The translations under genes and the position numbers were made by a program. The notes beneath the pieces are model-generated. The model was given only the letters and a program-made list of their open reading frames with translations. It searched no databases and was not told the DNA's origin. This document shows positions 1 to 10,186 of a stretch of DNA of 37,268 nt, in pieces; the first letter of the stretch is position 1, and each line of letters opens with the position of its first letter. Source of the DNA: Planctomycetota bacterium (lineage in GTDB: Bacteria; Planctomycetota; Planctomycetia; Planctomycetales; Planctomycetaceae); assembly GCA_003670925.1 (NCBI GenBank), contig QWQG01000035.1:1-37268 (forward strand). The letters run 5' to 3'.

Positions 1-205
1 ATTCGGGGCCGTTAATCGGCTTAATGAAGTCGTGCAGAAAAATGGTGTTCCACTTGATTTCCCGCCCCCTTTCGAAGGAATGGGAAAACTCGTACGGTGG
101 CCCCAGTGCCGCCGTCATCCACCGCAGCCGCTCAAGAAACGCCGCAGAACTCGCAGCAAACGCCCGCGCGAGTGTTTCGGTTTCAGCGTCAAACAATCCT
201 GCCAT
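1..205 (-). CDS. Hypothetical protein, partial (3' end beyond left edge)
   Basis: An open minus-strand frame starts at ATG (complement of 203-205) and stays open for 68 codons to the window edge. An AGGAA sequence lies about 9 bases upstream of the ATG, and an in-frame stop further upstream bounds the frame. The translation begins MAGLFDAETETLARAF and has a balanced, protein-like composition, including an aromatic-rich stretch (IKWNTIFLHDF). I do not recognise a family. It lies downstream of, and on the same strand as, the decayed integrase, so it may be cargo of the same element or the first resident gene beside it. The overlapping plus-strand frames are Arg/Pro/Ser-rich and look like shadows. 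Confidence 0.5.
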   Translation of the reverse strand, partial: MAGLFDAETETLARAFAASSAAFLERLRWMTAALGPPYEFSHSFERGREIKWNTIFLHDFIKPINGPE

Positions 206-309
206 CGTCGGGGGTTCCTGTACGCCCGCACCCTGAGAAAAAAAACACTACGGCAGGCGTTCAGGAAAACGCTTTTCGGGGATCAGCCTAGCCGAAGTGT
301 GTTCGCAGT

Positions 310-432
310 CTAACGCAAAGCCCGCTGAACGTCCCGCAAAATCTTCGCCCGAGTTGCTTCGTTCAAATGGGGCCACGCATCAATGACCGTTTGCAGATCG
401 GGGCCAATGGGGCCGCCTGTGGGGCCAGGCAT
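310..432 (-). CDS. Small integrase-associated reading frame (40 aa)
   Basis: A 40-codon minus-strand frame starts at ATG (complement of 430-432) and ends at TAG (complement of 310-312). It overlaps the end of the recombinase remnant in another frame. Its core, PDLQTVIDAWPHLNEATRAK, resembles, from memory, the short helical segment (aspartate-leucine, then DAWP-x-L-x-E-x-x-RA) found after planctomycete tyrosine recombinases. The N-terminal part is Gly/Pro-rich, produced by GGGGCC repeats. It may be a separate small protein, or the former C-terminal tail of a longer product displaced by a frameshift. No function is assigned. Confidence 0.4.
   Translation of the reverse strand: MPGPTGGPIGPDLQTVIDAWPHLNEATRAKILRDVQRALR
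369..426. repeat. GGGGCC hexamer cluster
   Basis: Four GGGGCC hexamers on the plus strand (369-374, 400-405, 409-414, 421-426) lie within 58 bases. Further copies lie at 5-10, 99-104 (as the complement) and 946-951. Elsewhere in the window the hexamer is seen only sporadically. The cluster sits at the end of the recombinase remnant and encodes the Gly/Pro-rich start of the 40-codon frame. It could be simple-sequence drift or part of an attachment or repeat region; the sequence does not decide. Confidence 0.5.
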
Positions 433-878
433 TTCCGAAAGTGCCCTTTGCCCAGCGTTTCCCGTAGTACGTTCGAGCCCTGGTCGGGTTATTTTCTAAA
501 AGGCTTTCCCCAGTGTTTTCAGCGTTTTCTGGGGTTTCGTCGGTCCCAATCGCAGTAAAAATCGCAGCATTTCCAAGGGTTGCGACGGGTTGCTGCTGCG
601 CATTTTGCTGCGATTTTTCGAAGTGCGAATCTGTCACCTGAAGATAGTGCTTCTGAGCTACCTTCGGAGAGTTGCCCAGCCACCGGCAAACGACGTGAGT
701 TGGGAAAGTTTCTTCCAGTTCCGTCTTCCAGTTCCGTCTGCCTGCTGGCCCGCATATTCTGAAACAACTTCGGCCACGGTTTCAGGCCTGCCCTCTCGAT
801 CACCTTCAGAAAGGTTGATCGTAAGTTTTGGCTGTTGCATCGGTATTGGGTAATGGCAAATTTCGCTCCTGAAGCCCC
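380..878 (-). pseudogene. Tyrosine recombinase/integrase C-terminal remnant, frameshifted
   Basis: Two minus-strand frames join into one recognisable planctomycete-type tyrosine recombinase C-terminus. The upstream frame (from an in-frame TAG at 879-881) reads NLRSTFLKVIERAGLKPWPK, then LFQNMRASRQTELE. The downstream frame continues ETFPTHVVCRWLGNSPKVAQ, then KHYLQVT. The match to the family is to box II (NMRASR) and the catalytic segment ending in the nucleophile Tyr (codon at 644-646). The two frames are separated by a 13-bp tandem duplication at 712-737; removing one copy restores the reading frame exactly. The SAM-like and N-terminal catalytic parts are missing, because an in-frame stop at 879-881 precedes the remnant. 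The downstream frame ends at 380. It is therefore a dead recombinase marking an old integration event next to hflX. Family identification is by motif recall, not by search. Confidence 0.75.
712..737. repeat. 13-bp perfect tandem duplication inactivating the integrase remnant
   Basis: The plus-strand sequence CTTCCAGTTCCGT occurs twice head-to-tail (712-724 and 725-737). Because 13 is not a multiple of 3, the duplication shifts the recombinase frame in the middle of the conserved TELEE segment. The residues before and after the duplication belong to the same conserved block, so the duplication is the likely inactivating lesion rather than part of the original gene. Confidence 0.85.
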
Positions 879-904
879 CTAGCCTGCGACCACGCGATTA
901 AACG

Positions 905-932
905 ATTCACTCTGTAACCTAGGCGGTATACA
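905..932 (+). promoter_or_regulatory. Possible sigma-70-like promoter upstream of hflX
   Basis: ATTCAC at 905-910 is followed after 16 bases by TATACA (927-932), about 75 bases upstream of the hflX start. The -10 element is a good match and the -35 element is weak. Planctomycete promoter consensus is poorly defined, so this is only a suggestion. Confidence 0.25.
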
Positions 933-1005
933 ATGTCCAAACAGCGGGGCCTTGTGCCGGACAAATGGGGCGGCGAACTTTACCGAATAGATTCTTAAAG
1001 GATGT

Positions 1006-2331
1006 TTGAACTTGGGTGATCCAAAACGAGATTCGCTGAAAGTCGGCAGTCAACGTGCCATTTTAGTGGGAGTGTTTCATCCGGATGATGCTTTTGCGAG
1101 GACCGGCGCGCTCGATGAGCTGAAGGGCCTTGTAAGAACGGCTGGAGTCGAAGTTGTGGGCGAAATGACTCAGCTTCGTGAGTCTCCGCATCCCTCCCTT
1201 TGCATCGGTCGCGGAAAGCTGGAAGAGCTCAAAGAGTTGGTGTTGCAGACTGACGCACAAGTTGTGATCTTCGACAACAACTTGACGCCGTCGCAGGGAC
1301 GCGCGCTCGAACAGTCACTCGAAAAGCCGATCGTGGATCGCAGTGAAGTGATTCTGGATATTTTTGCCACCCACGCCCGAACACAAGAGGCCATGTTACA
1401 AGTTGAACTGGCTCAGCTGATGTATTTTCGCACGCGTTTGAAACGGATGTGGACACATCTTGAACGCATCGGAGGCGGCGGCCTTGGAGGCTTGGGGGCT
1501 GGTCGTGGTCCTGGTGAAAAGCAGTTGGAAACCGACCGGCGATTGATTGATAAACGGATCTCGGAGTTGAAGAGCAAGTTGCACGACGTGGAGTCTCGGC
1601 GAGTCCGTACCGTTTCATTAAGGCGCGAGCAACCAACGGTGTCCATCGTGGGCTATACAAACGCGGGTAAGAGCACATTAATGCGTTCACTGACTGGTGC
1701 AGACGTCCTAGTGGAAGACAAACTCTTTGCCACACTGGACACGCGTACGCGCCGTTGGAAGCTGCCGCATTTTGGCGATGTGTTGTTGAGTGATACGGTT
1801 GGTTTTGTTCGCAATTTGCCACACCATTTGGTCGCGTCGTTCCGGTCAACCTTGGAAGAGGCTCGGCACGCGGATTTATTGCTGCACGTTGTTGATGCGA
1901 GCAGTCCTGAAGCCGAACGTCAGATTCAAACGGTGTATCAAGTCCTGGATGAGATCGGGATTCATGTCAAAAATGTCTTGTTAATCCTGAATAAGGTTGA
2001 TCGCATCGAAGATCAATCAATGGTCGATGTGCTGCGGCGACATTACGAAGATACAGTGACGATCAGTGCGGCGACCGGCATGGGACTGGATAAATTGGCA
2101 GACATCGTTGCTGAACGATTGTCGGGGGGATTTTCCGAAATTGAAATTGAGGCCAGTGTGGGGAACGGTCGGTTGCTTGCTTGGCTGACGCAACATGCCG
2201 AAGAACTCAGCCGCACCTATACTGACGAGACATACACGCGTGTACGGATCCGATGTCGCATCCCACGGCAGGCGATCGGCCAAATCCCAGGTGCCGACAT
2301 CACAATTATTGAACCGGCTGTCGCGACATAG
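1006..2331 (+). CDS. hflX: Ribosome-associated GTPase HflX
   Basis: HflX is a cytoplasmic GTPase that binds the 50S subunit and splits stalled or stress-inactivated ribosomes. The 441-residue product has the N-terminal HflX domain and the diagnostic glycine-rich linker (GLGAGRGPGEKQLETDRR). It then has a TRAFAC G domain with Walker A GYTNAGKS (about 216-223), DTVGF (from 263), NKVD (from 329) and a SAATG G5 element. Length is normal for the family. The start is uncertain. No ATG fits; the frame opens at TTG 1006, but a second TTG at 1012 sits at better spacing (9 bases) from AAAGGA at 997-1002. The gene faces the czcA-like gene convergently, with no obvious terminator hairpin in the 118-bp gap. 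Upstream lies decayed integrase sequence, so the promoter may lie in element debris. Confidence 0.95.
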   Translation: MNLGDPKRDSLKVGSQRAILVGVFHPDDAFARTGALDELKGLVRTAGVEVVGEMTQLRESPHPSLCIGRGKLEELKELVLQTDAQVVIFDNNLTPSQGRALEQSLEKPIVDRSEVILDIFATHARTQEAMLQVELAQLMYFRTRLKRMWTHLERIGGGGLGGLGAGRGPGEKQLETDRRLIDKRISELKSKLHDVESRRVRTVSLRREQPTVSIVGYTNAGKSTLMRSLTGADVLVEDKLFATLDTRTRRWKLPHFGDVLLSDTVGFVRNLPHHLVASFRSTLEEARHADLLLHVVDASSPEAERQIQTVYQVLDEIGIHVKNVLLILNKVDRIEDQSMVDVLRRHYEDTVTISAATGMGLDKLADIVAERLSGGFSEIEIEASVGNGRLLAWLTQHAEELSRTYTDETYTRVRIRCRIPRQAIGQIPGADITIIEPAVAT

Positions 2332-2449
2332 CAGGCCTCTCAGACTCGAAGCGTTTTGTACTCAGATCAGCGCCGCGACACGTCAAGGTTTTGTTGCATG
2401 CTGTCGGATCATTGAGTTGCATGGGGCCTGAAGATCGCAGATTTCCAGA

Positions 2450-5400
2450 CTACACCTCAATTGCTCGGCTATCGTTGTCTTCTTCCAACGACAATCTGCG
2501 TGCAAACCATGGATAGATTGCCGGCACGACAAGTGATGTGAGGAGCGTCGATGTGATGAGACCGCCAATCACAACGGAAGCCAACGGACGCTGCATCTCT
2601 GCCCCATCGCTCGTGGAAAAGGCCATCGGGAGGAAGCCGAGACTTGCCACAAGGGCAGTCATCAGGACCGGACGCAGACGTGACAGCGCCGTTTCGCGTG
2701 TCACATCAGGCAGCGGCAGTCGTTGTTTTCGTAGATGTTCGGCGGCGCTGACCCAGACCAGCCCGTTCAGGACGGCGACTCCGAACAGCGCTATGAATCC
2801 GACACCAGCCGAGATACTGAACGGCATCCCGCGCAGCTTCAGGGCAAAAATCCCTCCGCTGGCCGCCATGGGAACCGCCATAAAAATCAGTAGCGCCAGT
2901 CGCGTAGATTTGAACGACGTGTAGAGCAGCAGAAAGATGAGCAGCAACACAATCGGCGTGATTAGGATCAATCGCTGACTCGCGGACTGTAGATTTTCAA
3001 AGTCACCGCCCCAGCGAATCTCGTAACCAGTCGGCACAGCTAGGCCTTCTTCGACTGCGTGTTGTGCTTCGTTCACGAATGTGGCTACATCGCGACCTCG
3101 GACGTTGGCAGAAACGTATGTGCGACGGCGATTAGATTCATGCTCGACACTTGGAGGCGTTTCTTCAATCCGAATATCCGCTAGGTCGTCGAGTGGCACC
3201 GGCTTTCCGCCTGCTTCTGCCACGGGCAACTGTTTAATTCGTTCGATTTCAGCTCGCCAGTCATCGGGAATGCGGACGCGAATCGGAAACCGTGCACGAC
3301 CTTCAAAAATAATGCCGACGTTGCGACCACCAAGCGCCTCAACAACGTCCATCACTTGCTGCGCTGCAACGCCATATCGGGCCATTGCCGCGCGATCGGG
3401 GACGATAGTCACCGTGGTGAGATTCGCCTGATAGTCGGCCTTTACATCAACCGCTCCGGGAATGGAGCGCAGCGTCCGCTCGATATCTTTTGAAAGTTTG
3501 GCAAGTGTTTCGAGATCGTCGCCATAGATCAGCACGGCGACGTCGGCCTTGACCCCCGCTACAAGTTCATCGACACGCATTTCAATTGGCTGCGTAAACC
3601 CAAACGCGACACCCGGAATTTTGTTGTTCAGTCTTTGCGACATCTCTGCAATCAAGTCATCGCGCGTGATTCCCGGTCGCCATTCCTGGTGATCCTTCAG
3701 CATGACCCAGACATCGGTTTGATGCACACCCATCACATCATTGGCAATTTCTGGGCGCCCAGTCTTGCAGAAGACGGTTTTGACTTCGTCGTGCAGTTGC
3801 AAGAGTTCCGCTTCGATCTGCTGTGACATGTCGATCGCCCCCTCCAGTGTCGCGCTGGGCAGCCGCACAGCTTCGATCAGCAAATCCCCTTCTTCGAGAC
3901 GCGGCATGAACTCGGCACCCAAGTTCATACCGACTGGAATACTGAGGGCAAACACGAGAACTGCAAGCAGAGTTGTCGTGACAGGATTTCCAATCGCGCG
4001 TGTTACGAGGGGTGCGTAGAAATATTTTATCCAACGCAGCAGAAGCACGTCTTTGTTGGACATTTTCTTGGGTAAAGCCAGCGACGCGATTGCGGGCATA
4101 AACGTCATCGAAAGAATTAGTGACCCACCCAAAGCGAACAATATGGTGAGGGCCATGGGGCGAAATAGTTTACCTTCGGTTCCCTGCAACATCAGAATGG
4201 GAAGGTAAACGATGGAGATAATCAGTTCTCCAAACATCGTCGGCTTGCGAACTTCTATCGCTGCGTCGCGAATCACGTCAATCCGATTTCGGCCTTGCGA
4301 ATTGTGCGAAAGCCGATGAATGCAGTTTTCGACCATAATGACAGAAGAGTCCACGATCAGCCCAAAGTCGATCGCTCCGAGACTCATCAAGCTGGCCGTG
4401 ACACCAAAGGTGTGCATCATGCTGGTGGCGAACAACATCGACAACGGGATAGCCATAGCCGTAATCAATCCAGCGCGAAAACTGCCGAGCATCACGAGGA
4501 GCACGATCATCACGAGTGCTCCGCCTTCGAACAGATTCTGCAACACGGTGCGCAGGGTGCGAGCGATCAAGGCCGAGCGGTCATAGATAATTTCAAGCCG
4601 CACCCCGTGAGGCAGGGTTTTTTCAATCGCCGTGATACGTTCTTTAATGCGTCCGACGACTTCGCGAGAATTCTCGCCGATCAGCATCATAACGAGGCCG
4701 GTGACTGCTTCGCCGCGCGCATCGCGCGTGACGACGCCCTGGCGCGTCATGGGCTCAATCGAAACCGCCGCAATATCGCGAATCAGCAGTGGCGTGCCGC
4801 CTTCTTCGCGGCGAATCACGATCTGTTCGATGTCGGCCACGTTTTTCACAAGTGCTTGGCCGCGCACAAATCTCTGTTCACCATGATGAATCACATATCC
4901 ACCGCCAGCCGCTGCGTTGTTCGCTTCAAGCGCCTGGAATATCTGAGCGAACGTCAACGAATAGCTGGACATCAGGGCAGGGTCTGGACGCACTTCAAAT
5001 GTCTGATAGTATCCACCGTGCGTATTGATTTCTGTGACACCCGGCACTTCGCGCAGCCGAGGGGCAATGTCCCATTCCAGCACAGTGCGCAGCGCCATCG
5101 GTGAATATCCTTTGCCACGCACTTCAAACTGCAAAATCTCACCAAGCGCAGTGGTCAGCGGACCCATTTCAGGAGTTCCGTATCCGGCGGGGATGAGTGC
5201 GGCAGCGGCACTCAGGCGTTCGGCTACAAGTTGTCGTGCGTGGTAAATCTCTGAGCCTTCCGCAAATACGATTGTGACAACAGAAATTCCAAACTTTGAA
5301 ATACTCCGAAGTTCTTCCACATCAGGCAACCCTCCCATCGTAACTTCGACCGGTTGCGTCACGTAGCGTTCGACTTCAACCGGTGACAGTGAGCCGGCCT

Positions 5401-5554
5401 CGGTAATCACGGTTACCTGAACATTCGTCATGTCCGGGACTGCGTCAATCGGCAGATGCAGGGCGGCGTTCACACCGGCGACTGCCATCAGGGCCGTGCC
5501 CATCAGCACCAAGAATCGATTTTCAAGTGTCAGTTTGATAACTTGAGCAAGCAT
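2450..5554 (-). CDS. Heavy-metal efflux RND transporter (CzcA/CusA family)
   Basis: This is the inner-membrane proton-driven pump of an HME-RND tripartite efflux system, probably exporting divalent or monovalent metal cations from the periplasm or cytoplasm. The 1034-residue length is normal. An N-terminal membrane helix is followed by the first porter region (LPIDAVPDMTNVQV), a membrane block, a second porter region (GAEFMPRLEEGDLL) and a final membrane block. The TM4 signature reads DFGLIVDSSVIMVEN. Its acidic residues, near D396, D402 and E409, match the DFG-D-E arrangement of the CzcA-type (divalent cation) subgroup rather than the CusA variant. Metal specificity cannot be fixed by eye. 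The adaptor gene lies 99 bp upstream on the same strand and is presumably co-transcribed. No outer-membrane factor gene is adjacent. No clear Shine-Dalgarno site precedes the ATG. Confidence 0.93.
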   Translation of the reverse strand: MLAQVIKLTLENRFLVLMGTALMAVAGVNAALHLPIDAVPDMTNVQVTVITEAGSLSPVEVERYVTQPVEVTMGGLPDVEELRSISKFGISVVTIVFAEGSEIYHARQLVAERLSAAAALIPAGYGTPEMGPLTTALGEILQFEVRGKGYSPMALRTVLEWDIAPRLREVPGVTEINTHGGYYQTFEVRPDPALMSSYSLTFAQIFQALEANNAAAGGGYVIHHGEQRFVRGQALVKNVADIEQIVIRREEGGTPLLIRDIAAVSIEPMTRQGVVTRDARGEAVTGLVMMLIGENSREVVGRIKERITAIEKTLPHGVRLEIIYDRSALIARTLRTVLQNLFEGGALVMIVLLVMLGSFRAGLITAMAIPLSMLFATSMMHTFGVTASLMSLGAIDFGLIVDSSVIMVENCIHRLSHNSQGRNRIDVIRDAAIEVRKPTMFGELIISIVYLPILMLQGTEGKLFRPMALTILFALGGSLILSMTFMPAIASLALPKKMSNKDVLLLRWIKYFYAPLVTRAIGNPVTTTLLAVLVFALSIPVGMNLGAEFMPRLEEGDLLIEAVRLPSATLEGAIDMSQQIEAELLQLHDEVKTVFCKTGRPEIANDVMGVHQTDVWVMLKDHQEWRPGITRDDLIAEMSQRLNNKIPGVAFGFTQPIEMRVDELVAGVKADVAVLIYGDDLETLAKLSKDIERTLRSIPGAVDVKADYQANLTTVTIVPDRAAMARYGVAAQQVMDVVEALGGRNVGIIFEGRARFPIRVRIPDDWRAEIERIKQLPVAEAGGKPVPLDDLADIRIEETPPSVEHESNRRRTYVSANVRGRDVATFVNEAQHAVEEGLAVPTGYEIRWGGDFENLQSASQRLILITPIVLLLIFLLLYTSFKSTRLALLIFMAVPMAASGGIFALKLRGMPFSISAGVGFIALFGVAVLNGLVWVSAAEHLRKQRLPLPDVTRETALSRLRPVLMTALVASLGFLPMAFSTSDGAEMQRPLASVVIGGLITSTLLTSLVVPAIYPWFARRLSLEEDNDSRAIEV

Positions 5555-5653
5555 GTTTTATGGCCATCAGAATTGCAGGCAGATCAATCTCTTAGAGATC
5601 GCGAATTGAAGGGCGGCGAGCAGGGAGATTTGAAGATTCGACTCCGTGCAGCG

Positions 5654-7147
5654 TTACTCTTCGCCCTCAAGCAGCAGTTCACTTTTCAGGTAGAAACCAC
5701 CACGCGACACCACCTGCTCACCCGCAGACAGTCCCGAGATCACTTCGACAATTCCGTTCATGCGTAGCCCAAGGATGATGTCGATGCGACGAAAGCCGCC
5801 GTCACCGTCTGGACTGAACACAAAAGTCCGCTGATCGTGTTCGAGGACAGCGGATTCAGGCACCGTCAGGGCTTCCCGCGATGCCGCGAGGGGCACGGCA
5901 ACTTGCACAAACATGCCCGGGCGCAATTCACCATCAGCATTGTCGATCACGGCCACAAGGGGGATCGCATTTGTTAAAGGATCCACTTCGCGTCCGACAA
6001 AATGCACGCGAGCCGATAATGTTTTCTTGCCCAGTGTTGACGGCTCGACACGAATTTCGTCCCCTGGCTTAAGGATTAGCGCCTTCCATTCCCGTTCGCG
6101 AAGATCGGCATAGACCCAGAGTGTTGAAGTATCGGCCAAGGTCAGCAGGCCGTCGCCAACGGCAACTCGTTCACTGGGAGAGAATTGACGTCGCTCAATT
6201 GTACCAGCAAACGGGGCTCGCAATTGTACTAGCGACAGTGACTCGGGGATCTCTTTCTGGCTGACACTCGTGTCTGTGTCATTTTTTGCCGCTGACGCCT
6301 CATCCGCTGCACTTTGTCCCAACAGGGTCTGCACGGCCTGTTGGCAGATGCTAAGCCTTCGTTCGAGATCCTCTGCTTGTGTTTCCGCATGCCGTTGACT
6401 GACTTTTGCCGTGAACGTGAGATTTTCCAGTGCAGTAAGCAGGGTGGCTTCGGCATTGTCACGATTGTTGATGCGTTCTTCGATGATCCGGCCGGATACG
6501 CCGCCGCTCTTCGCATTTTCCTCGACCGCAGTAGCCAGTGATTCAGCAAGCAAGACATCGGAATAAGCCGAAAGAAGTTGCTCGCGATTTTTGCCGAGCG
6601 TAACGTGCTTAAAGTCCTTTTTGATCACCTCGATTGGCATTCGCTCGCGAATGGCGTCCGTCAATTTCGCGAGGCCATCGCAGATCTCCTTTTCCCAGTC
6701 ACGGTTTTCTACCGCCAGCTTCAGTTCCGAAGTTCGTTGCAGCACGTCGGCTCGTGCATTGCCAACTTCGGAGCTACTGAGTTTAATCAGGACATCACCA
6801 GCTTTGACCTTATCGCCAGGGTTGACGCACACCGCCGTAATAATCCCAGGTGTCGCTGTGCGAACTTCGACGTGTCGTCGATCATCGTATTTCAGGCGGC
6901 CCGGGACGTTGTTCTCCAAACGCAGCACCGTCGTCACGGCCTTTGTCAGTATAATGTCAGCGGCTTTGAGTTTATCCGGAGGCAACTTTACGGCCTTAGG
7001 ATCCCTGTCTGCGGCGACATCGTCCCGCGCTTTTTGAGACTGATCAATCCCGAAGGTTACTGCCGCAGAAAAATAATGGCGTCCACCGTAAACGGCAACC
7101 GCGGCCACCGTGAGAACAAGAACGCCGGTGAGGACACGTAACTTCAT
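5654..7147 (-). CDS. RND efflux periplasmic adaptor (CzcB-like membrane fusion protein)
   Basis: This adaptor links the RND pump to an outer-membrane channel. From the chosen start, MKLRVLTG, there is one N-terminal hydrophobic anchor or signal (about residues 1-22). A lipoyl/barrel half follows (PGIITAVCVNPGDKVKAGDV), then a long helical hairpin rich in Glu, Arg, Gln and Ala. The second lipoyl half reads LRAPFAGTIERRQFSPSERV, and a beta-barrel and membrane-proximal domain end near SAGEQVVSRGG. At about 497 residues it is longer than a minimal CzcB, mainly in the hairpin. The frame is open to 7231, but ATG at 7147 is preceded by a strong GAGGAG at 8-base spacing, so that start is preferred. 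It precedes the pump gene and follows the His-rich protein gene. Confidence 0.9.
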   Translation of the reverse strand: MKLRVLTGVLVLTVAAVAVYGGRHYFSAAVTFGIDQSQKARDDVAADRDPKAVKLPPDKLKAADIILTKAVTTVLRLENNVPGRLKYDDRRHVEVRTATPGIITAVCVNPGDKVKAGDVLIKLSSSEVGNARADVLQRTSELKLAVENRDWEKEICDGLAKLTDAIRERMPIEVIKKDFKHVTLGKNREQLLSAYSDVLLAESLATAVEENAKSGGVSGRIIEERINNRDNAEATLLTALENLTFTAKVSQRHAETQAEDLERRLSICQQAVQTLLGQSAADEASAAKNDTDTSVSQKEIPESLSLVQLRAPFAGTIERRQFSPSERVAVGDGLLTLADTSTLWVYADLREREWKALILKPGDEIRVEPSTLGKKTLSARVHFVGREVDPLTNAIPLVAVIDNADGELRPGMFVQVAVPLAASREALTVPESAVLEHDQRTFVFSPDGDGGFRRIDIILGLRMNGIVEVISGLSAGEQVVSRGGFYLKSELLLEGEE

Positions 7148-7245
7148 GCCTGAAACTCCTCTGTGAAAACTTGCGGCAGAATGCCTGACAACCAAGCATT
7201 GCGCAATACTTCGCCGGATCATCGACGACACACAGAGATTCGTGG

Positions 7246-7722
7246 CTAGACCAAGTCAACGCCTGTCACCGCCGACAGCGGAATTTCGCTCAGCAGCGTC
7301 TGCAGAAACGAACGAGGCCTTGTTGTGTCCGGCCGAGGCACACGTGGTAGGATCACAACGTCAGAATTCACGTGTTCCGGACACGCACGCAGCATGAGTT
7401 GCATTGTCTGAGCTTCGATCGATTCAAAGCACAATGCTGCTGACGCGCATGCGAACAGTGGCAGTTCAGAAGTTGCGTCGTCTCGCACAGGGCACTGATC
7501 GCCGTTGAGATCTTCAGGAAATGCGAGGTGCCAATGCAACCCCACGATCTGGTCCAGCGACTGCCCTTCATGAAACACCAATGCGTGTCTGTTTTGCAAT
7601 GCTTCATCTGTCAGTGCATGATGATCATGCAACACAGGCACAGGCCCACGCCAAGCGCAGAGACTAATCAGCAAGCAGATGACCTGCTGCAGCGTTTTGT
7701 GATTGTTGACAAATTTGGACAC
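7246..7722 (-). CDS. Small exported His-rich protein upstream of the metal efflux genes
   Basis: A 158-residue frame starts at GTG 7722 with AGGA about 8 bases upstream. The N-terminus has a hydrophobic segment (LQQVICLLISLCAW, residues 11-24) that could be a signal peptide. It is followed by a His-rich stretch with seven histidines between residues 32 and 65 (HDHH, then RH, FHE, HWH). The rest is unremarkable, with a few cysteines. I recognise no family. Its position 98 bp upstream of the adaptor gene on the same strand, together with the clustered histidines, suggests a periplasmic metal-binding or metal-sensing accessory protein of the efflux operon. That role is inference. Confidence 0.6.
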   Translation of the reverse strand: MSKFVNNHKTLQQVICLLISLCAWRGPVPVLHDHHALTDEALQNRHALVFHEGQSLDQIVGLHWHLAFPEDLNGDQCPVRDDATSELPLFACASAALCFESIEAQTMQLMLRACPEHVNSDVVILPRVPRPDTTRPRSFLQTLLSEIPLSAVTGVDLV

Positions 7723-8152
7723 GGATTTTTTCCTGAGGCACCCATATGCGGCGCGTCAACAATACTCTCGAATAGGGAATAACACCGTCGTGTTCCTCGC
7801 CAAAAAAGGATAGCACCTTCTGGAAACGATGGCGAGCGACGTGTTCAGTTTGCCGAAAATCGTGAGCCTCAACAGGTCGTTGATGCTGGCCTGTTAGCGG
7901 CAAAGGAACACTGCCACCGTAGCCCGATATGATCCGACATTCCGTGAGGGTTGTGCAACAGCAAAAAATGAATTTGGAGGTAGTTCATCAAAATCGAATT
8001 TAGAAAATCGATCTCTGCGCGACACCCCTCCTACCAGTGATTAGCCGAGCGTTCGCAGAATCTAGAGAAAAGTTGGGCCTGATCGCAACGAAATGGGTGG
8101 ACTTCCGCTAGGATTCAACCCCCGTTTGCTCCCTCCAGTTTGGTCCCATCAC
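7723..8152. other. Divergent intergenic region between metal-efflux operon and symporter pair
   Basis: No convincing gene is visible in this stretch of about 430 bases, which should hold the promoters of both divergent units. A short perfect inverted repeat (AACAGG ... CCTGTT, near 7870-7900) is present. AT-rich sequence with repeated AATCGA-like words occurs around 7985-8010. No MerR-type dyad is obvious. Confidence 0.4.
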
Positions 8153-8449
8153 ATGACACGCCAGCAGGATCCAGTCGTCAATTCTTCATTTCGTGAAGCC
8201 ATTGTCGTCGTCAGCATTTGGCTCATTGCCATGACATGGACGATCACGGTGTGTTACCGCATGGGCTATAACCGGCCTGTGGAAGAACTCAAATTCGTGT
8301 ATGGATTTCCGGATTGGATCTTTTGGGGCATCGTGGCTCCTTGGTGCGTGTGCACAGTCATCTCATGCCTTTTCAGTGCGCTGTTATTTCGGGACGGGCA
8401 TCTGGGTGAGGACGTTGAAAATGCCGACGACCTTGGATTGGGGGGCTGA
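8153..8449 (+). CDS. YhdT/DUF997-like small membrane protein, symporter partner
   Basis: A small two-helix inner-membrane protein (98 residues from the ATG at 8153) resembles the YhdT/DUF997 family that accompanies pantothenate-type sodium/solute symporters. It shows the family pattern REA then helix 1 (VVVSIWLIAMTWTITVCY), then a GY-RP-EEL-FV-G-PDW loop, then helix 2 (WGIVAPWCVCTVISCLFSAL). A short acidic tail ends in DLGEDVENADD. The frame is open from ATG 8093, which would add 20 residues of less typical sequence (MGGLPLGFNPRLLPPVW). The inner start fits the family better, although neither has a Shine-Dalgarno site. Its stop is 3 bases before the symporter ATG, so translational coupling is likely. 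Confidence 0.8.
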   Translation: MTRQQDPVVNSSFREAIVVVSIWLIAMTWTITVCYRMGYNRPVEELKFVYGFPDWIFWGIVAPWCVCTVISCLFSALLFRDGHLGEDVENADDLGLGG

Positions 8450-8452
8450 GTC

Positions 8453-10186
8453 ATGCAGGAAACAACTCTTGGCTACTTTAATCACATCGTAAACCGGTTC
8501 GATAACGTAGCAAACGGACTGCTAAGTTTGGCTGTTGATCCGCCTGCGCCCCGTGCGGGTTACGGCGCGATGTTTATGCTCATTCTGTTTATTCTGGGAT
8601 CCGTCTGGATTGGCGTGATCGCTAATCGTGCAACGCAGAGCAGCGGATTCATGAAAGGCTTCTTCCTCGGCAATCGAGGCCTAGGGGCGTGGGCACTGGC
8701 ATTAACGGCGACCGTCCAGAGCGGCGGGACATTCATGGGATTTCCGTCACTGGTCTACAAACACGGCTGGATCGTGGCTTTGTGGATTGGGAGTTACATG
8801 ATCGTCCCGCTCACGGGATTTGGCATTATCGGAAAACGACTGGCACATTTGAGTCGCCGCACGGGAGCGATCACCGTTCCCGATCTATTTCGGACGCGTT
8901 TCAATAGCCCTGCTGTGGGATTGACTTGTACGATCTTTTTGCTGCTTTACATGTCGTTCCTGATGTTTGCTCAGTTCAAAGCCGGCGCGATCGTCATGCA
9001 ACTGGCGTGGCCAGATTCGTCAGAACTTGCGATAGCGGAAGATGCGGTTCCCACATCCGAAATCACATATGATCTCAGTCTGCCTGGTTTTCCGATCAAG
9101 CTGACGCGGTATCACATTGGACTCTTGATCTTTTCGAGCACTGTCGTGGGTTATACGTTGATCGGTGGCTTTCTGGGCGCTGTCTGGACAGACCTGTTTC
9201 AAAGCCTGTTGATGTTCGTTGGCATTATGATTCTGCTCTACGCTTCGCTGACAGCGGCGGGTGGACTCGAAAACGCAACGCTGACGTCGCTGAAGCATAC
9301 GGGGCCGGGATATGTGATGGGGCCAGGCTACAGTAGCGGGACAGATGCCTCGGATTTCCTGCCGCTGTCTCTCGCGATTTCGTTCTTTATTGTCTGGGTC
9401 TGTGGCGGTATTGGAAACCCTAGCGGACTGGTGCGACTGATGGCCAGTCAGGACACGAGCGTGATTCGCAAATCCATCTACCTTCTCAGTCTTTACAACA
9501 TGGGGATCTATTTGCCTTTAATCGTGATCTGTATCTGCGGTCGAGCGCTGATTCCGGACCTCGAAAAAACGGATGAGATCATTCCGCGTTTGGCGTTGAT
9601 GACGACAAGTCATTGGCCCGGGGGGTCGATTGTTGCCGGACTGATTCTCGCGGCTCCGTTTGGCGCCGTCATGGCAACGGTCAGTTCCTATCTGGTTGTC
9701 TTGTCCTCCGCAGTTGTTCGCGATATTTACCAGCGTTTTGTGAATCCCAAAGCGGAACGTAAGCACTTGCGTGTGGCCGCATGGTGTACGATGATTTTTG
9801 CTGGTTCGTTGTCAGTCGTGATTAACTGGAACCCCGTGAAATTTCTGCAGGCGTTTATCGTGTTTAGCACGTCTGGAGCGGCCGCCACATTTCTGGTTCC
9901 GGCGATTATGGCGTGTTACTGGCGGCGCGCGAACTCAAGCGGCATCCTGACAAGCATGCTCAGCGGAGCACTCACCGTGCTGGTCCTGTATACGATTGGG
10001 ATTGCCGATCTGCTGCCACAAACTCCAATTGGGGCACAGACTTTGTTCCGTCCGTACTTCCTGTGGGGTTACGACCCCCTGATCTGGGGACTGCTCACCT
10101 CGACCGTATCCGGCATCACTGTCACGCTGCTGACCGAACCACCTGATGAAGAACTTGTCGTGCGAATGTTCGATGTGGACCAGTAA
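8453..10186 (+). CDS. Sodium:solute symporter (SSS family, PanF-like)
   Basis: A 577-residue multi-pass inner-membrane transporter of the sodium:solute symporter family, with roughly a dozen or more hydrophobic helices. Recognisable pieces are GFFLGNRGLGAWALALTATV and SGGTFMGFPSLVYKHGW in the first helices. GYTLIGGFLGAVWTDLFQSL is the classic SSS segment, and the conserved later region around AAPFGAVMATVSSYLVVLSS also fits. About 37 extra residues precede the first helix. Together with the adjoining YhdT-like gene it resembles the PanF/YhdT pair, which points to a carboxylate or pantothenate-like substrate. The actual substrate is unknown. It converges on the PilZ-like gene with a gap of about 100 bp. 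Confidence 0.92.
   Translation: MQETTLGYFNHIVNRFDNVANGLLSLAVDPPAPRAGYGAMFMLILFILGSVWIGVIANRATQSSGFMKGFFLGNRGLGAWALALTATVQSGGTFMGFPSLVYKHGWIVALWIGSYMIVPLTGFGIIGKRLAHLSRRTGAITVPDLFRTRFNSPAVGLTCTIFLLLYMSFLMFAQFKAGAIVMQLAWPDSSELAIAEDAVPTSEITYDLSLPGFPIKLTRYHIGLLIFSSTVVGYTLIGGFLGAVWTDLFQSLLMFVGIMILLYASLTAAGGLENATLTSLKHTGPGYVMGPGYSSGTDASDFLPLSLAISFFIVWVCGGIGNPSGLVRLMASQDTSVIRKSIYLLSLYNMGIYLPLIVICICGRALIPDLEKTDEIIPRLALMTTSHWPGGSIVAGLILAAPFGAVMATVSSYLVVLSSAVVRDIYQRFVNPKAERKHLRVAAWCTMIFAGSLSVVINWNPVKFLQAFIVFSTSGAAATFLVPAIMACYWRRANSSGILTSMLSGALTVLVLYTIGIADLLPQTPIGAQTLFRPYFLWGYDPLIWGLLTSTVSGITVTLLTEPPDEELVVRMFDVDQ

Follow-up and report, generated by a model that had tools for sequence, protein, structure and literature searches.

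Why the remnant of a tyrosine recombinase lies directly against hflX, and what kind of element left it there, is the question raised by the start of a 37,268-nt stretch of a Planctomycetota genome (assembly GCA_003670925.1, contig QWQG01000035.1, positions 1 to 37,268), hereafter the window. Positions 1-878 are probably the end of an element targeting tRNA-Gln(UUG), made up of an integrase (int) pseudogene and an RNA leader that we propose to switch translation of the element's first gene. A broken integrase is ordinary by itself, and most of the interest lies in the RNA: the window exposes an undivided attachment site beside an orphan RNA family.

The integrase fragment and its lesions

An earlier note on this DNA had described two minus-strand frames at 380-878 as an uninterrupted recombinase C-terminus, broken by a tandem duplication that was thought to be the single identifiable lesion of an ancient integration next to hflX. 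A perfect 13-bp tandem repeat does split a tyrosine recombinase C-terminus, but neither the extent and end given for the gene nor the Pfam match expected of it held. The features of the integrase and its surroundings are as follows.

724 to 878, minus strand: int body, upstream frame (GASGAKFAITQYRC...QNMRASRQTELE), truncated at 878; 878-723 is homologous to residues 303-354 of L125
711 to 736, minus strand: perfect, frame-shifting 13-bp tandem duplication, from repeat comparison and as an insertion relative to L070
471 to 736, minus strand: int body, second frame (KVAQKHYLQVTDSHFEK...) with the presumed catalytic Tyr, from the joined translation and homologues
471 to 492, no strand given: predicted attachment core within the int frame, matching exactly the final 22 nt (nt 52-73) of the tRNA-Gln(UUG) that this genome encodes
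464 to 470, minus strand: second frameshift, +1 nt relative to L070 in the alignment, at the edge of the core (about 466-470)
310 to 470, minus strand: int C-terminal tail, third frame, ending ...DLQTVIDAWPHLNEATRAKILRDVQRALR and stop, homologous to the L070 tail
879 to 897, no strand given: putative rearrangement junction joining int to the hflX leader, from comparison with relatives
898 to 2331, plus strand: host hflX with its native leader, inverted in comparison with relatives G001 and G014, from the same comparison

The word TCTTCCAGTTCCG at 711-723 is repeated letter for letter at 724-736; no other perfect adjacent tandem repeat in the 37-kb window reaches 11 nt. The additional 13 nt are absent from the aligned int of L070 (genome G004), and the frame breaks exactly at the duplication, as had been claimed. 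With one copy omitted the two frames do join, giving ...FLKVIERAGLKPWPKLFQNMRASRQTELEETFPTHVVCRWLGNSPKVAQKHYLQVTDSHFEKSQQ..., but they do not run uninterrupted to 380. The native end of int, judged from the homologous tail of L070, is instead the stop at 310-312 in a third frame: the L070 tail reads ...DLQGLIEAWPALSETTKRKILRDVQRALK and stop, and the window tail reaches its own ending in another frame. Homology to int begins only at 878, and the missing N-terminal part was found neither in the window nor in the rest of the genome, whose other matches are a different int on contig C1 (45%) and decayed pieces. Rather than one lesion there are at least three, namely the truncation at 878, the 13-bp insertion and the +1 shift at about 466-470, and the window copy is a pseudogene, truncated and frameshifted twice.

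The joined translation, for which a PF00589 match had been proposed as a check, matched no Pfam family at E <= 10, and PHROGs and Pfam searches of the joined fragment gave nothing useful, so that its identity as a recombinase rests on its homologues L070 and L089. The former is 66% identical to the stitched translation over query residues 2-161 without a stop, and the two score 31.1 and 48.1 bits against PF00589, respectively (cut-off 27.1). The joined translation also contains NMRASRQTEL and KVAQKHYLQ, which we take to be the box II Arg and catalytic Tyr motifs of tyrosine recombinases and which are consistent with the homologues. Most of the homologues listed are one open frame, and the two frames were not seen as separate conserved proteins. 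Through these homologues the description as a decayed recombinase of planctomycete type is upheld, as is the duplication as a real lesion. The age assigned to it fares worse: window positions 471-640 are 98.2% identical (167/170) to the end of contig C256 of the same assembly, and a copy with only 3 mismatches in 170 bp argues against an ancient event.

Some further observations concern these integrases. A perfect 13-nt inverted repeat, AAAAATCGCAGCA and TGCTGCGATTTTT, lies inside the int coding region at 557-569 and 606-618, and one of its arms is mismatched in the C256 copy. At L070 (403-1461 on G004:C27) an HD-domain-like N-terminus is fused in frame to the int C-terminus, and the adjoining ORFs resemble type I restriction-modification genes by eye. 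A second decayed int of the window's own genome, with two in-frame TGA codons, lies beside tRNA-Met (L008 2363-2690, G000:C50).

The tRNA-Gln core and the contact with hflX

The 22-nt agreement between int and tRNA-Gln stands well above the background of the window, since the longest match among 200 other window 120-mers averaged 6.2 nt and never exceeded 9. L070 provides a parallel case, in which positions 570-589 equal nt 52-71 of a different tRNA-Gln, that of G004 itself, with the same boundary at nt 52. The identity between the window and C256 stops at 471, at the edge of the core, and C256 continues into a complete tRNA-Gln(UUG) (L010 6423-6495) through which the int C-terminus runs antisense. 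The two copies consequently differ in their tails, the window copy ending ...RDVQRALR and stop and the C256 copy ...RTWNDRTKICCVTITPSGYVD and stop. Ending antisense in a tRNA gene is a habit of this int family: at 46 of 56 int loci an antisense T-arm lies no more than 450 nt past the downstream end of the int match, compared with 1/56 for the upstream control (a set that leaves out L087, the genome's own C256 fragment, and L148, the same place as L071). The opposite end is seen at L173, from another family of the phylum, where a T-arm at -211 is followed by a leftover tail ...LVLVWDALPDYIRKAILTLAGVDG, its stop and, 9 nt on, the RNA. The core match, C256, the habit of the family and L173 together point to an attP inside int, and integration would then, as in phage Mx8, exchange the int tail for a peptide encoded on the antisense strand of the tRNA gene.

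Among the 17 other genomes of the genus, 15 retain tRNA-Gln directly behind a TPR gene, and in three of these genus mates (G004, G005 and G014) an int of the same kind lies against the TPR-adjacent tRNA-Gln. In the present genome C256 holds tRNA-Gln with int and the window holds a 3' tRNA fragment with int; the tRNA gene and its displaced fragment sit on separate contigs, and their connection is presumed.

On the minus strand the window runs int body, core, int tail, int-alpA RNA and first gene of the element. This is the undivided (attP-type) form, whereas C256 shows the tRNA-joined form. Such an undivided order belongs either to a circular form or to the joint of two elements in a row. The window may be a joint of this kind, between two related elements accreted at tRNA-Gln, of which the left one would contribute the RNA end and the right one int; the right-hand element would later have been severed by a rearrangement that placed hflX next to it. 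We favor a joint because the orientation fits: the int in which C256 ends starts at tRNA-Gln, and the window opens within the RNA-side end of an element pointing in the matching direction. Window positions 1-310 overlap no contig of the assembly other than their own, and since no contig bridging C256 and the window was found, the tandem arrangement is one that we infer from orientation and two contig ends, the contig starting at window position 1.

It remains to account for hflX. The hflX leader of G001 aligns with the window from 898 onward and that of G014 from 968 onward, and in comparison with both of these relatives the hflX block is inverted against the symporter block that begins at 8035 (window 898-10186 compared with L119 and L120). 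Within the fetched flanks of hflX, no tRNA gene occurs at any of 28 loci scanned. An attachment core taken from tRNA-Gln, the lack of tRNA genes at hflX and the inversion of hflX indicate that the contact between int and hflX is probably a rearrangement breakpoint, a separate event and not an integration site. Two candidates were rejected along the way: relatives carrying tRNA-Gln beside hflX as an empty site are ruled out by the same 28 loci, and a simple inversion that left the int N-terminus near 8035 should be visible there, where no trace of it was found. Just upstream of the hflX leader in G001 and G014, where the breakpoint falls, there is an inverted repeat (GTTTAACGGC...GCCGTTAAAC).

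Could the locus nonetheless be an old integration next to hflX, inactivated by the 13-bp duplication alone, as the earlier note had it? There is indeed a frame-shifting duplication, and the int fragment and hflX are neighbors. However, the core derives from tRNA-Gln, tRNA genes being absent from the fetched flanks of all 28 hflX loci, the N-terminus is missing and a second frameshift is present, and both the near-identity to the C256 copy and the inversion of hflX relative to two relatives speak against it, leaving this explanation highly improbable. Alternatively, the junction, the duplication or the undivided attP order might be assembly errors. In favor of this, the assembly comprises 259 contigs, and C241 and C256 each have an end that falls at or within the repeated int or its neighbor. 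Yet an independent genome (L070) has matching tail and core sequences, and the hflX leader is collinear with G001 from 898 and nearly so with G014 from 968, so that we regard such errors as quite unlikely and retain the rearranged end of a tRNA-Gln element as the preferred reading.

The int-alpA RNA and the partners of its loop

Behind int lies an RNA of the int-alpA family, a name that denotes an RNA between int and alpA genes. Its parts in the window are these.

231 to 298, minus strand: int-alpA RNA (RF02996), 45.9 bits against a gathering score of 35.8, 11 nt past the int stop
262 to 267, minus strand: loop word TTCCTG ('anti-SD') of the P3 hairpin, from the RF02996 alignment
232 to 236, minus strand: 3' end of the RNA, TCAGG, first partner of the loop (CAGG at 235-232 pairs with CCTG)
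215 to 220, minus strand: CAGGAA, resembling a Shine-Dalgarno (SD) sequence, second partner of the loop, 9 nt before an ATG, from the centroid fold
2 to 205, minus strand: first gene behind the RNA, 68 aa visible, cut by the contig start, without a match to AlpA or any other family in Pfam and PHROGs

RF02996 matches occur in 28 of 149 relatives and, across the phylum, in 39 of 392 genomes; the 14 control genomes gave none. The overlapping lists of 45 matches (relatives) and 64 (phylum) gave 56 RNA loci for examination. At 50 of the 55 loci with sufficient sequence, an ORF of 84 aa or more begins 16-40 nt beyond the RNA, the median start of all 55 being 23 nt; the search for start codons covered 12-42 nt beyond the RNA, which partly builds in this spacing range. 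Four of the 55 have only ORFs below 30 aa, and the ORF of the window itself is truncated where the contig ends. Ten downstream genes were searched against Pfam and proved diverse: three integrases, one of them just below the PF00589 cut-off and with a SAM-like integrase domain, one each of ORF6N, YhcG nuclease, DUF1376 and a resolvase-like protein, and three without a match. At L044, L046 and L053 the RNA lies directly ahead of an integrase gene. Outside the phylum the RF02996 cut-off is passed at L180, L182 and L183 (Accumulibacter, Desulfobacterales and Nitrospinaceae), where the loop, 3'-end and SD words recur by eye. L181, from a genome scan, has no RF02996 match and was discarded as a chance match, and a pattern scan of viral contigs gave 0 hits. 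At L070, the closest int with this tail, the RNA had no match at E <= 10, and an int-alpA RNA recognized there by eye was dropped for want of support from cmscan.

The pairing of the loop was analysed at 50 loci, that is, the 56 less L058 (too short), L050 (whose RNA is that of L049) and four lacking a recognized P3 hairpin; several loops mis-called by the script (e.g. L059, L168 and L171) were kept. Complementarity between loop and 3' end averages 5.30 nt as against 3.21 nt when permuted, and that between loop and SD 5.02 nt as against 3.58 nt. In a set thinned to 38 loci of less than 80% similarity, beyond which the permutations ignore relatedness, the corresponding values are 5.21/3.14 and 5.05/3.59, and 0 of 5000 permutations did as well for either partner. 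Over offsets from -20 to +158 there are only two clear peaks of complementarity, one at each partner, and duplex energies are lower for the own pairs (-7.06 and -7.71 kcal/mol) than for permuted ones (-3.61 and -5.07 kcal/mol). Matches shorter than 5 nt make up 10/50 loci for the 3' end and 18/50 for the SD. The word on the SD side has the hallmarks of its position: it is at least 4 nt long at 46 of 50 loci, its end lies a median of 9 nt (IQR 8-10) upstream of the start codon, and 42 of these 46 words include GG, and a hairpin around the SD occurs at 37/50 loci, where 11.7 are expected. This comparison of sequences shows that the P3 loop has two overlapping partners, both covarying with it, and since they overlap the two predicted pairings would compete. 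Folding programs seldom display the alternation. In nested, single-sequence folding the loop:SD helix is rare (above 0.3 at 4/50 loci) and the switch mostly not seen; where the helix does not form, the pairing would need to be of loop-loop type. The leader of the window is no more stable than its shuffles (z 0.08).

A proposed leader switch and its known counterparts

We propose that the int-alpA RNA is a 5' leader acting as a translational switch of the element's first gene. When the loop pairs with the RNA's own 3' end, forming a pseudoknot, the SD would be left open; when it pairs with the SD, the SD would be closed, and the leader would thereby set translation of the first gene. The comparison thus offers int-alpA a concrete, testable mechanism, with one loop and two covarying partners of which one is the Shine-Dalgarno. 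If this is correct, an attP between int and the RNA means that integration and excision change the transcript that enters the leader: its input would be read-through from int in the circle and the host flank when integrated, and the switch would be tied to the element's state. A tentative generalization, which we hold with reservation, is that int-alpA RNAs are widespread translational switches of mobile elements, in which an anti-SD loop picks either a 3'-end decoy or the real SD, coupled to element state. A leader switch would change the sRNA annotation in Rfam and give a handle on the control of first genes in such elements.

It is possible to explain the same words differently. They may be DNA sites, short repeats for an integrase or excisionase near attP, with the RNA reading a by-product. 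Recombinases use arm-type repeats, which counts for such sites, and the RNA can indeed be near a core, about 170 nt away in the window and with a T-arm at -167 to -211 at 5 of the 56 RNA loci. However, most of these 56 loci have no tRNA core nearby, and it is not evident why a DNA site should keep the spacing of an SD and its GG, or be enclosed in a hairpin at many loci, so that we consider this unlikely. A small RNA or an attenuator, in which a stem and U-run terminate transcription and the downstream pairing is secondary, would agree with the sRNA class given by Rfam and with the U-rich stretch after P1 in the consensus. Against this stand the ORFs that follow at nearly all loci and the covarying SD partner, both of which fit a leader, and a simple terminator scan that gave no site at the RNA of the window; an RNA of this type is rather unlikely as the whole explanation, although attenuation could coexist with a leader role. 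The translational leader therefore stays our preferred proposal.

Much of the setting is already known, namely attP inside int and int-alpA as an orphan motif; the int fragment adds a new, broken example to a known kind. The source of the int-alpA description is reportedly a 2017 paper, which lay outside the literature that we searched; within that literature we found no description of the dual loop pairing or of the SD partner. Like the RNAs in Rfam, that of the window scores above the cut-off and sits directly behind an integrase gene; the visible part of the gene that it precedes, which is cut by the contig start, has no AlpA match, and both the dual pairing and the SD partner are absent from the Rfam structure line. 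Phage Mx8 of Myxococcus xanthus carries attP inside the 3' part of int and swaps the C-terminal tail upon integration (PMC4701971; PMC4383910). The window resembles Mx8 in having a tyrosine integrase with a core inside the int frame (471-492, likewise in L070) and tails that differ between forms, but it targets tRNA-Gln, its int is a truncated pseudogene followed by an int-alpA RNA, and the undivided form is in a chromosomal contig. Genomic islands in tRNA genes (Islander) are known to occur in tandem arrays (PMC4383910). As in these islands, a 3' tRNA fragment marks the element's end, but in the window the far boundary is lost to the contig end on one side and to the rearrangement on the other. 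Integration of the SSV type splits int, whereas here only the tail would be exchanged. In archaeal integrases of that type int extends across attP (PMC4383910).

Further int-alpA RNAs deserve mention. The second one of this genome (L002 1325-1568, G000:C50) adjoins a 3' tRNA gene segment that by eye resembles tRNA-Lys, with no int gene on that side. G276 has 8 matches, with several RNAs on one contig: those at G276:C35 150-217 and 269-337 start 119 bp apart, and further matches lie on G276:C100.
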